Below are positions 37,555-49,050 of a stretch of DNA of 64,000 nt, one piece after another. Position 1 is the stretch's first letter; the number at the start of each line of letters is the position of its first letter. The DNA is from Pseudovirgaria hyperparasitica. Lineage: Eukaryota; Ascomycota; Dothideomycetes; Acrospermales; Acrospermaceae. The DNA lies in NCBI RefSeq assembly GCF_010093815.1, contig NW_022985557.1:434001-498000 (forward strand), read 5' to 3'. The notes beneath the pieces were generated by a model. That model was not told the DNA's origin and ran no database searches. It saw nothing but the letters and a program-made list of their open reading frames with translations. A program made the position numbers and the translations under genes.

Positions 37555-38943
37555 TCAATCGTGATCCCTCTTTACGACGTCGGTATTGGTGGTATCATCA
37601 TCCTTCCGCTCAAGACGAATTTGCCGGAGTCCCTTATCCAACATGTCGAGCTTCTCGTGAACTTCTGCTAATCCCTGCTGCATGCTCACATCTAGTCCCT
37701 GATGTCCACGTTCCGTACTGCCCTCATAGCTGCTTCTCGTTCTGTCCAGCCCACCATGATGTAAACTCTGAGATCTCTCCAGCCCAGAATAGTGGCTATT
37801 ACCCATCCGTTCCAGGGCTGCATGACGGCTGCTGTTCGCCCTCTCAAACGCTCCATCAACAGTCCGCTGGCCCCTCGTAAACGTCGATTCAAGCGCACTC
37901 TGACTACGCGACAAGCGTTCGTGAATTGCCTGCTGCCCTCTTCCAAGCCCCTCTTGCAACTCCTGCTGCCCGTGATCCGCATGATGGTGCATCTTCTCAT
38001 TAATCCTCTCGATACCCCTATGTACCGCATCTAATCCCCTTGCAAGCCCATGATGCCCTCCCTCAGCCACTTTTTCACCAAACCCCCCTGCCGTACTAGC
38101 TATTGTCCTGTGCGACTCCCCGATCGCCGGTAAAGGCGCGACACGCGCTGTATCTAACCGGCCCGCACGTGTCACAGATGTATAAGAATCCGGCACATTT
38201 GCTTCGACATCGGCGCGCACGTTCTCGTACATCAGCTCTATGATGCGTGCTTCTTCCTCGACAACGAGGGTGCATGTCTCGACGCCGAATTCGCGCTCAC
38301 GTTGCTCGATGTATTCGCGCACTTTGCGCCACTCGGACTCGAAGTATGTGAAGCGGTTGGGCAGTCCGGAGCCCTTGAGGTAGGTCAGGAAGCCGGCAAT
38401 TATGGTGTTCACGGCGCCGAAGAAGGTCACAGCACTGCGGCCGCCACCGGCGGCACCTGTGATAGTTAGTCTACACAGAAGGATGGTCTATGGAGGGACA
38501 GAAAGCATACCAAGGGCGGTCAATGTCGCCGCTACGACAATTTGTAGGCCCAAACATCCGTTGATCGCTATCGAGAAGAACTTGAAAAGCTTCCCGCAGT
38601 TCTTTTCTGCCGAGACCGTTCGTGTGTATATACCCACGTTTGGGGCTTTCCGTTGCAGATATGTAGTATCTGTTAACGTAGACACTGAGTCGATTCCCAC
38701 CAATCTACGGAAATGGGCCAGCCGGTCGTGTGTTCCAACAAATTCATGGACTGCAGATCCGATGGGGGCGGGCGGGCGACTTGTTCCTGCGTAGATCCGT
38801 TGTGGTTGAGAGGGAATGCCTTCAGACTGTGACATGGTCTGGGGAGCATGTGTGTTGTCAGGCGCGTTCGCGAAATTGGCCTTTTCTACATCGCCTTGCA
38901 TGCTTCGCTTGAGCAGAGAAGAGACGAAAGGTATCTTCTTCAT
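37555..38943 (-). CDS. Fungal SLATT-domain (2TM) protein with a hendecad-repeat tail
   Basis: Two exons, 38943-38511 and 38456-37555, joined by a 54-nt intron, give 444 residues. The fungal SLATT domain (about 95-240) has FRRLVGIDSVSTLTD, then NVGIYTRTVSAEKNCGKLFK, a first membrane segment FFSIAINGCLGLQIVVAAT, a glycine turn (LGAAGGG), a second segment AVTFFGAVNTIIAGFLTYLK, and the following GSGLPNRFTYFESEWRKVRE and YIEQREREF helix. SLATT domains are known as membrane-perturbing effectors next to SMODS/SLOG in bacterial defence; the role of fungal members is unknown. The tail (about 279-421) is thirteen eleven-residue repeats (see separate entry), then an acidic end. The position in the membrane and the tail's role are inferred. 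It is divergent from the GST gene, 1.3 kb away. Confidence 0.85.
37627..38055 (-). repeat. Thirteen tandem 11-residue (hendecad) repeats in the SLATT protein
   Basis: Residues about 279-421 divide without gaps into 13 units of 11, for example HAALERMGNSH, YSGLERSQSLH and HGGLDRTRSSY. Position 4 is hydrophobic in 12 of 13 units (L, I, F, A or M), position 6 is Arg in 10 of 13, and position 1 is mostly His or acidic. An 11-residue period is three helical turns, which gives a straight amphipathic or right-handed coiled helix as in perilipin-like and LEA-type proteins. The DNA itself is not obviously repeated, so the array is old and kept by selection on the protein (inference). Confidence 0.9.
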
Positions 38944-45047: not shown

Positions 45048-47119
<2,072 letters not shown>

Positions 47120-48066
47120 GATGAAATGAGATGAGGTATGATATAGGAGTGGAGGAGGGAGAAGATGGAGAGAGGTCAAAAGCAAGCAATTGGAGACTGT
47201 ACAGAGAGAGAATGGAGGATAGGAAGAGGGGAGAAAGAATATGAAGGCTAGGACAGGTAAGCTAAAGGAAATTTTTTGTATACAGATTATGGCGGAGTGG
47301 AAAGGTAAGGCCTTTTGGGGGGAACTGCCGACCGACGTAATGTTGTTTCGGCTGCGGGGCAGAGCACGGACGGCGTAGTCCAAAGCACGCAACCTTGTTA
47401 CTACAGGGGGTCCCGGTCGGGTGGAGTCGGTTTACGAGCACTGCTGCCCGTGCGACGAAGTGGTGAGGGGCTTCGGGGAGACTTTAATCCAACACCAAGT
47501 CTTGATCTATTCACAGCTTCGGGGGCCATGGTCTATATACTATCTCACGACCTCGAATGCCAGCTGTCACAAACAAGCAATTCTCAGCAAACAGGGTACG
47601 TGCGATGATGACAAACGGCAATGATAACACACCAATGCGTGTCAATCAAAGAGGAAAAGCTTGGTACGATGGTGTGATCGGTCGCACACGAGGCGTGTTC
47701 CAAACTTCCTTTTGGCTGTCCGGCCTGGAATGAGACATACATTCACGGGGTGCGGAGACGCCTCATATACACACAAGGCGATCTTACACAAGATAAGGAT
47801 TGCAGAGATCATAGCGTCTGATGGGCCTTTAGAGGTTGAATGCTGCTTCACTGTGATATCGCGATAACTATGTAATTTTGCCGGCGGCTCTCATCCGAGA
47901 GATTCGCATCCTTCCACTTCTTTTGTATCTTTTTGTCTTCTATCTCTTACGAGATGCTGACCGCTGTATAGTCCCCAGCACTCATAAATGCTCACTGCCG
48001 AACGCCAATATGCTGTGGTATACGCTAAAAATCGCACGAAAGAAATGTACAGACTATGGGAGACTA
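47120..48066. other. Spacer between PAPS reductase and ATP sulfurylase genes
   Basis: 947 bases; contains the ATP sulfurylase promoter (minus strand, pyrimidine-rich near 47150-47230 on that strand). No further gene seen. A GATC/CATG survey for a sulfur-regulator (MetR/CYS3) palindrome by eye found none I would defend. Confidence 0.5.
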
Positions 48067-49050
48067 TTACACCGAGATGGAGGTCTGATTGAGCTGCTCG
48101 ATAGTCTGCTCCATGCCTTCTTGTTGTAAAGTTCGCTTACGCTCTTGATCCATGAGAAACTGAGCGTAGCGGGACTTCTTGTTGTGGATGCCACACTCGG
48201 TTTTGTTGCGGCCTTTCCAACGTCCAGAACGCTCGTCCTCACCGGCAGCGACAGGCTGCGTGGAGTGCCAGTCACCGACGCTCTTGTAGCCGCGCTGGAG
48301 AAGTTCATTGGAGGGAACGTCATTTTCCTTGATGTAGGTGTTGACTTGATCAAAGGTCCAATTGGCTAGTGGATTGACCTTGATCATACCGGTGTCGTCA
48401 ATCTCGACAATGTCAAGCTCGCTGCGTTTCCCGCCTTGGGTGCTGCGGCGACCGGTGATGACAGCCTTGACCTGAAGTTCGGCGTAGGAACGTTGGGCAG
48501 GCTCCACTTTGGCCACCCAGTCGTAGAGTTCCTCATTGGACTCCCACAGCTTTTCGCCGTGCTTAGTGGCGAATTCTTCAGCGGTTTCGCAACCTTCAGG
48601 CTTGTAGATGTGCATATGGAACTTCGGATAGGTCTTCCTCACGCGGTTGGCCAGGTCAAGAGTCTCGGAGAAGTGGTGCAAGGTATCGAGGAAGATGAGG
48701 TCAATGCGAGAGCTTAGTGGTCCAGAGATCTTGGACAGCTTATCGAGAATGACGAGGCCTGAAGGTCCAAGAGCGGTGGTTTGGTATAACGATGGCAATG
48801 AGATCAGGCACCATTGCAGGATTTCTGCAACATGTTAGCCCTCGAGTTCGACACGTGATCATGGGGAAAGAGTTTACGCACCATCTGGCGACAATTTGGA
48901 CAACTGCTGGTTGATGTGCTTCAGGTGTGTCTTGGTAAAGAGTACTTCAGGCTGTGGGGAATCGTTTGATTCGCCAGAACCATATCCAGACTCTACATCT
49001 CTCAGTGACGCGGTATCCTTGTCGTCGTAGGTGGTTGAATTGCCCGACAT
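48067..49050 (-). CDS. MET16: PAPS reductase (phosphoadenosine phosphosulfate reductase)
   Basis: Reduces PAPS to sulfite with thioredoxin. Two exons, 49050-48882 and 48824-48067, with a 57-nt intron, give 308 residues. Junction: LSPDEILQWCLISLPSLYQT, then ALGPSGLVILDKLSKI, LIFLDTLHHFSETLDLANRV (PP-loop-type fold), VKAVITGRRSTQGGKRSELD (phosphosulfate site) and the catalytic KTECGIH near the end. I chose the Met that gives MSGNSTTYDDKD; an in-frame ATG 93 bases upstream (49143) would add 31 basic residues. Same strand as ATP sulfurylase 0.95 kb downstream. The APS kinase that links the two reactions is not in this window. Confidence 0.96.

Follow-up and report, generated by a model that had tools for sequence, protein, structure and literature searches.

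A predicted SLATT membrane hairpin with a long 11-residue-repeat tail in the fungus Pseudovirgaria hyperparasitica

SLATT domains are found in conflict systems of bacteria and in viruses that infect eukaryotes, where the pores attributed to them are predicted or hinted at. In the bacterial work they are described as predicted pore-forming effectors of conflict systems (PMC7159879, PMC12483538), and even there the pore is termed a prediction (PMC12483538). SLATT is mentioned together with fungi and pore formation in work on conflict systems, mainly of multicellular prokaryotes (PMC7159879), and on algal polinton-like viruses. In one E. coli strain, a reverse transcriptase associated with a SLATT protein makes SbcB essential (PMC9122126). 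Searches of the open-access literature for the fungal family under the names SLATT_fungal, PF18142 or '2TM effector domain' found nothing, and no description was found there of a SLATT hairpin and an apolipoprotein-like helix in one protein. The gene described here, EJ05DRAFT_389251 of Pseudovirgaria hyperparasitica (a Dothideomycete of the order Acrospermales; genome of 35 Mb in 59 contigs), encodes a SLATT_fungal protein. It lies in a stretch of 64,000 nucleotides (contig NW_022985557.1, positions 434,001 to 498,000), referred to below as the window.

The protein is predicted to consist of a SLATT hairpin of two transmembrane (TM) helices followed by a proline-free amphipathic tail with an 11/3 geometry (11 residues per three turns); judged from its sequence, this arrangement is well supported. 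The tail is read here as a membrane-anchored surface helix of the perilipin/apolipoprotein kind, with a probability of roughly 0.4, in preference to a hendecad coiled coil. A long, regular helix of membrane type on a fungal SLATT protein is a concrete handle on the family.

The SLATT gene and its predicted hairpin

The gene and its parts are as follows.

37555..38943, minus strand: SLATT_fungal gene EJ05DRAFT_389251 of P. hyperparasitica, 444 amino acids, one intron (from open frames and splicing)
38511..38943, minus strand: exon 1, residues 1-145; low-confidence N-terminus, conserved motif before the TM helices, first TM helix
38457..38510, minus strand: intron of 54 nucleotides, GTATGC...CTAAC...CACAG, with an in-frame stop; the deposited protein agrees
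37555..38456, minus strand: exon 2, residue 145 to the stop, stop included; second TM helix, further helices, 11-residue array
38209..38619, minus strand: SLATT_fungal domain, residues 109-227, spanning the intron; Pfam PF18142, E = 2.2e-35
37630..38058, minus strand: array of 13 contiguous 11-residue units (residues 278-420); positions 1 and 5 are hydrophobic, 4 and 8 small in most units, 6 frequently acidic and 7 Arg

The earlier note placed the gene correctly at these outer coordinates and left the minus strand and the splicing unstated. Read without splicing, the frame is broken by a stop inside the intron; with the intron removed it gives 444 residues. The intron borders are of the usual fungal type, CTAAC resembles a branch site, and the codon of residue 145 is split across the exon junction. 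The spliced product is identical to the deposited hypothetical protein EJ05DRAFT_389251 (P0001 in our protein set) over 100% of its length.

The match to PF18142 scores 121.8 bits against a cut-off of 26.5 and covers profile positions 2-121 of 121. The assignment to SLATT in the earlier note is borne out by this strong match; the contrary outcome, no SLATT profile match, did not occur. Hydropathy averaged over 19 residues exceeds 1.4 at residues 119-149 and 153-171 alone, giving two predicted TM stretches. The AlphaFold2 model has helices at 105-147, 151-174, 176-201 and 210-231 in this part, with block-mean pLDDT (predicted local distance difference test) values of 85-97 up to residue 230. 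A hairpin of two TM helices, as expected of a SLATT protein, is predicted. Among the aligned relatives (45 rows, with P0058 entered twice, hence 44 distinct proteins), every row matches SLATT_fungal at E <= 1, and 7 of 45 also match the Pfam family SLATT_1 at that level (best 0.0039). A scan of prokaryote genomes with the same aligned set gave 72 pattern matches, none of which was confirmed.

Homologues were surveyed by scoring 7,997 candidates. The best 120 of 405 matches were used, together with three proteins from a search with the tail of P0053 (described below), making 123; the sample is therefore biased towards the best matches to one query. Several polar or small residues are conserved in at least 97% of these 123 relatives: N128, Q134 and T142 in the first TM helix, and T155, G158, N161, T162 and A165 in the second. 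This stripe would fit either the lining of a lumen or close packing of the helices. Polar residues that hardly vary in either TM helix, and the predicted pores of bacterial SLATT effectors, would favour a SLATT pore effector of a stress or non-self response in the fungus, whose tail would be its sensor or autoinhibitory arm; the same residues could equally serve helix packing. This role is considered unlikely, and the genomic evidence against it is taken up below.

The 11-residue array and its relatives

The earlier note described a perfect-register array of hendecads from residue 279 to 421, which is the same set of 13 units begun one residue later. In that register it had reported a hydrophobic position 4 and Arg at position 6 in 10 of 13 units, and both counts hold. 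Position 4 is I, L, M or F in 11 of 13 units (12 with Ala counted). Position 6 is Arg in 10 of 13, whereas the best shuffle places Arg in 8 of 13 units of one register (0 of 20,000 reach 10). The spacing is indeed unbroken; "perfect" does not extend to the unit sequences, which vary considerably. Autocorrelation of the tail from residue 240, scored with BLOSUM62, peaks at lags 11, 22 and 33 (z = 8.2, 6.5 and 5.7; 0 of 5,000 shuffles reached each). As a control, 139 segments of 150 residues were drawn from the window's open frames, whether or not these are real genes. Lag-11 z reaches 5 in two of these, both of which overlap the array.

Projected on an 11/3 wheel, the sector that holds positions 8, 1 and 5 is 66 degrees wide; position 6 is about 131 degrees to one side of position 1, and position 7 about 131 degrees to the other. 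The hydrophobic residues follow one narrow stripe at 98.2 degrees per residue, equal to 11 residues per three turns. At 98.18 degrees, residues 278-431 have a hydrophobic moment of 0.312, which exceeds the highest value among 20,000 shuffles (0.225); at the heptad value of 102.86 degrees the moment falls to 0.017. The array has no proline and 1.36 Gly per 11 residues. In the register of the feature list, 9 of 13 units have Gly, Ala or Ser at position 4, and 9 of 13 have one of these at position 8. Hydrophobic residues (A, I, L, M, V, F, W, Y) make up 27% and charged residues 29%; the basic residues are 18 Arg and 4 Lys, and the net charge is -1. No TM stretch is found in the tail, where the top 19-residue hydropathy is 0.32. 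AlphaFold2 gives it two long helices, 308-376 (69 residues) and 383-443 (61 residues), with block-mean pLDDT from 43 to 90. These models are monomers of moderate confidence, in which a membrane helix and a coiled coil look alike. Autocorrelation, periodicity, the modelled helices and the moment against shuffles all support the long amphipathic 11-residue array proposed in the earlier note.

A repeat of this kind could be lineage noise, left by recent expansion of a 33-nucleotide unit and functionless. The strict array does have few relatives: used alone as a query, the window tail matches itself and nothing else at E <= 0.01, and strict arrays (lag-11 z >= 7) occur in 5 of 123 proteins. At the DNA level, however, Tandem Repeats Finder reports no tandem repeat at the locus. 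DNA identity at lag 33 is 0.429, against 0.414 +/- 0.015 with random synonymous codons, and 181 of 1,000 recodings reach 0.429. The recurrent Arg is encoded by four codons: AGG, AGA, CGT and CGG. Because the lag-33 identity falls within the recoding range and there is no tandem repeat, the 33-nucleotide period simply follows from the amino acid sequence, and a duplication that founded it, if there was one, is old. Recent expansion of a DNA unit was rejected on the same two grounds. A similar hydrophobic geometry is also seen again in a second SLATT group. The lineage-noise explanation is largely refuted by the DNA-level tests, and we regard it as highly improbable; the array pattern is real and is maintained at the protein level.

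The second group was found with the tail of P0053, a protein of Neophaeococcomyces mojaviensis. Used as a query, this tail finds itself and P0121, P0122 and P0123, each preceded by a SLATT domain. All four carry strict arrays, with lag-11 z of 14.9, 13.9, 7.5 and 8.5 for P0053, P0121, P0122 and P0123, respectively; lag 22 lies slightly above lag 11 in P0122 (7.8 versus 7.5) and P0123 (9.0 versus 8.5). They form one group on the SLATT tree (SH-aLRT, an approximate likelihood ratio test, 99). Their consensus, roughly R-x-G-L-E-S-R-L-x-x-T by eye, is unlike the window array, and their Gly content per 11 residues is 1.06 (P0053), 1.18 (P0121), 0.60 (P0122) and 0.50 (P0123). The P0053 model has tail helices at 245-334 (90 residues) and 343-459 (117 residues), with block-mean pLDDT from 50 to 84. 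P0053 and the window array share two strong hydrophobic positions 33 degrees apart with a weaker third adjoining, and place their charges differently.

Local alignment of the window array with P0053, P0121, P0122 and P0123 gives scores that full shuffles reach in 0, 0, 5 and 1 of 200 cases. When the 11 columns are permuted instead, the scores are reached by 96, 75, 130 and 46 of 500 versions. Similarity beyond composition and a shared period is not clear, because these column-permuted controls often reach the alignment scores; on this ground a shared ancestral array for the two kinds is unsupported. On the domain tree, which was built in 'quick' mode without bootstrap, the strict array takes two changes and any amphipathic tail eight; P0001 has a long branch there, and according to a warning of the tool its pairing with P0019 could be spurious. 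We read the two kinds as having two origins, or one so old that only geometry remains; a separate origin is probable. If strict 11-residue arrays did arise twice on a SLATT domain, straight-helix geometry is probably what selection keeps.

The wider family was scored for amphipathicity where the tail has a proline-free stretch of at least 70 residues. This holds for 30 of 123 proteins, the other 93 falling outside the scoring; tails of fewer than 60 residues (44 of 120) were left unscored for periodicity. Significant hydrophobic periodicity (<= 0.027), peaking at 98-100.5 degrees, is found in 28 of the 30, including all five strict arrays, and none peaks at the heptad value. The two exceptions are P0026 (0.063) and P0019, which peaks at 80 degrees (0.293). 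Because an ordinary alpha-helix would also peak near 100 degrees, these results are evidence against heptads and not proof of hendecads. Long amphipathic helical tails, of ordinary or 11/3 twist, recur in the family, and the window array is a regular form of them.

The array is not a hallmark of the family, since most surveyed proteins are without a strict one. The earlier note had tied homologues without the 11-residue period to chance or lineage noise. Most homologues do lack the period; the array is nevertheless not noise, because a second SLATT group has strict arrays, many relatives have amphipathic tails, and the pattern is conserved at the protein level.

Repeat tails of several unit lengths seem to recur on the SLATT domain. 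Strong periods are seen in P0020 (7 residues, z = 10.6), P0114 (7, 6.8), P0119 (18, 7.9) and P0120 (25, 10.8). In one predicted protein, P0050 of Aspergillus leporis, SLATT_fungal is joined to a GNAT acetyltransferase, through fusion or an annotation merge. The P. hyperparasitica genome itself holds one further SLATT_fungal gene, L001 (336 amino acids), whose tail is acidic, of low complexity and by eye without hendecads, and a damaged partial copy, L002; no second array was found in this genome. Positions 1499-1833 and 2249-2409 of L002 (G000:C26) are 98.2% and 96.9% identical to L001 (G000:C16, 1326-1814) over 335 and 161 nucleotides. The copy is split by about 415 nucleotides of other sequence, and this intervening stretch has ends that by eye are alike in translation; the copy looks like a duplicated fragment with an insertion.

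Membrane helix or coiled coil

The earlier note held that such a helix would lie on membranes or coil together, a fair account of the two leading options. The tail has the features of a perilipin-type 3-11 helix: an unbroken 11-residue period, a hydrophobic stripe at 98 degrees and no proline. Its hydrophobic moment (0.312) is within the range published for membrane 11-mer helices, namely 0.30 for alpha-synuclein, 0.35 for Plin3, 0.257 for Plin4 and 0.39 for ApoA-I in the table consulted (PMC5889406, Table 1); since those values average over consecutive helices, they can be compared with the moment found here only roughly. The Pfam profile Apolipoprotein A1/A4/E (PF01442) matches P0053 at E = 1.2e-12, P0123 at 4.3e-8, P0121 at 1.7e-7, P0122 at 1.1e-4 and the window protein at 0.048, and 12 of 45 aligned rows match it at E <= 1. 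Among PDB sequences, the best matches of the family profile are weak ones to apolipoproteins A-IV and A-I (E 0.013-0.054 over the first eight).

On the surface-helix reading, both ends of the hairpin would be cytosolic, as the basic residues flanking the TM pair suggest by eye. The tail, about 215 angstrom long if fully helical (143 residues x 1.5), could then lie on the cytosolic face of the same membrane, on a neighbouring membrane or on a lipid droplet. Contact would make the tail fold into a weak 3-11 helix of the perilipin, apolipoprotein or synuclein type with balanced charge. A single unit would be a poor binder, and affinity would come from length and from the TM tether. Adjacent helices might align through acidic position 6 and Arg 7 to make a coat. 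Plin4 helices are described as forming stable layers through polar contacts (PMC8064757), and by analogy positions 6 and 7 could give similar contacts between helices. Most speculatively, the tail may read lipid packing or curvature and thereby cluster or gate the SLATT hairpins.

Several observations weigh against this reading. Neither P0053 (48.3 bits) nor the window protein (13.8) reaches the Pfam cut-off of 90 bits for PF01442, and with no match reaching it, the tail is not classed as an apolipoprotein. The hydrophobic fraction of 0.27 is under every entry in the published table (0.32 and up; PMC5889406, Table 1). The net charge of -1 offers no basic excess for binding acidic membranes. 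Any ordinary alpha-helix would show a period near 100 degrees, the core of a hendecad coiled coil could also be built from hydrophobic positions 1 and 5 together with 4 and 8, and the strict array was seen in 5 of the 123 surveyed proteins. Lipid binding, localisation and oligomeric state of the tail are all predictions. Perilipin (PF03036) is absent from the three Pfam matches of the window protein up to E 10, in a search where HMMER filters drop most weak matches; no Perilipin match was found in the P. hyperparasitica genome or in the controls, which makes that result uninformative.

The tail may instead be a hendecad coiled coil, parallel or antiparallel, with a core of positions 1, 4, 5 and 8 that oligomerises the SLATT hairpins into a channel or an inter-membrane scaffold. 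The core positions of a hendecad are a, d, e and h, which the hydrophobic positions 1 and 5 and the small positions 4 and 8 match. Long continuous helices in the models of the window protein and P0053 agree with such a structure, as do the near-zero net charge and the acidic position 6 adjoining Arg 7. Coiled coils are poor in Gly, whereas the window array averages 1.36 Gly per 11 residues and the other four arrays range from 0.50 to 1.18; core positions 4 and 8 of the window array are also frequently occupied by Gly, Ala or Ser. The peaks at 98-100.5 degrees in further family tails suit a plain alpha-helix equally well. The models that show the long helices are monomeric, with pLDDT in the tail helices as low as 43 here and 50 in P0053. 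The Gly content and the absence of proline would fit a helix folding on a surface better than a pre-formed coiled coil. We regard the coiled coil as a possible but tentative explanation.

Dehydration protection was also considered. Late embryogenesis abundant (LEA) proteins of Group 3 carry 11-residue repeats, and an LEA-like tail would be disordered when wet and fold on membranes on drying; N. mojaviensis, the source of P0053, is presumably a desert-dwelling fungus. LEA repeats are Lys-rich, unlike the 18 Arg to 4 Lys of the window array. No LEA family appears among Pfam matches to E 10 for the window protein or to E 0.1 for ten relatives, with HMMER filters again dropping most weak matches. 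A protectant of this type is very unlikely.

A larger proposal combines the surface helix with the conserved TM residues. The protein might be a eukaryotic membrane switch, in which a SLATT hairpin with channel-like polar TM residues is gated by a tethered apolipoprotein-like helix of about 200 angstrom that senses lipid packing, curvature or tension. On this view, fungi would have evolved strict hendecads two or more times out of a wider amphipathic-tail form. The proposal as a whole is doubtful.

Neighbouring genes and described systems

The window contains 58 long open frames, of which 20 were scanned. Pfam matches were obtained for 14 of the 20, none in a recognised defence family. The neighbours include Raptor-type, fructosamine kinase, ApbA-type reductase, ATP sulfurylase with APS kinase, PAPS reductase, Arb2-domain and Kelch frames; ten further frames gave four matches, to an FMO-like protein, Rsm22, DUF6536 and a UBX protein. 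The ATP sulfurylase/APS kinase and PAPS reductase frames (45048-48834) are about 1.8 kb apart and may be a small pair of genes for sulphate assimilation. Those neighbours that could be identified have housekeeping roles, and the scanned frames hold no pointer to a defence or incompatibility cluster.

No SMODS domain was found among the scanned neighbours. An intron-blind search of the P. hyperparasitica genome, made for SMODS alone and no other nucleotidyltransferase families or SLOG, gave none either; among 14 control genomes, two (E. coli and M. jannaschii) were positive. NLR, HET and NACHT domains are absent from the families listed for the scanned proteins (for the aligned rows, 25 of 80 families were listed; PF28217 of P0053 is unassigned). 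The role in stress or non-self response suggested in the earlier note is unsupported by this evidence: the neighbours are housekeeping genes, and there is neither a SMODS match nor a listed NLR-type domain.

In a structure search of viral proteins with the P0053 model, the 50 matches listed include five giant-virus proteins annotated as SMODS and SLOG-associating 2TM effector proteins; one more bears the name SLATT domain-containing. These SLATT-named matches have probabilities of 0.93-1.00 and E of 0.0038-0.05, and no listed match reaches E 0.001. Against the P0053 model, the giant-virus 2TM effector proteins have query TM-scores of 0.21-0.25 and identities of 8-13%. With the window protein as query, a search of solved structures returned nothing at E 1. 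Foldseek against the PDB gave 414 matches to E 10, none at 0.001. Matches from VIA-align (BAR domains, ESCRT-III, NINJ1, a designed TM hairpin and others) lie below the level that the tool treats as meaningful for helical bundles. NINJ1 (9bia), for instance, has 3-6% identity and a score under that level of about 13, and is tied with unrelated entries.

Within PF18142, the window protein has the domain and motifs common to 122 relatives. It differs from most of them in what follows the domain: 44 of 120 have fewer than 60 residues there, and strict arrays are limited to 5 of 123.

The tail can be compared with two groups of lipid-binding proteins. Perilipins bind lipid droplets without a TM anchor. 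Plin4 and Plin3 resemble the window protein in having a long 11-mer amphipathic helix with a weak hydrophobic moment and few aromatic residues. They differ in composition (charged residues 15-23% versus 29% here, hydrophobic residues 35-37% versus 27%), and here a TM hairpin precedes the helix. The exchangeable apolipoproteins A-I, A-IV and E share profile similarity with the family tails, above all that of P0053. The helix of ApoA-I is broken by seven prolines (PMC5889406), whereas the window array is proline-free and follows a TM hairpin. Should the tail recruit or gate that hairpin, the protein would provide an unusual example of a transmembrane protein to which an apolipoprotein-like helix has been added.
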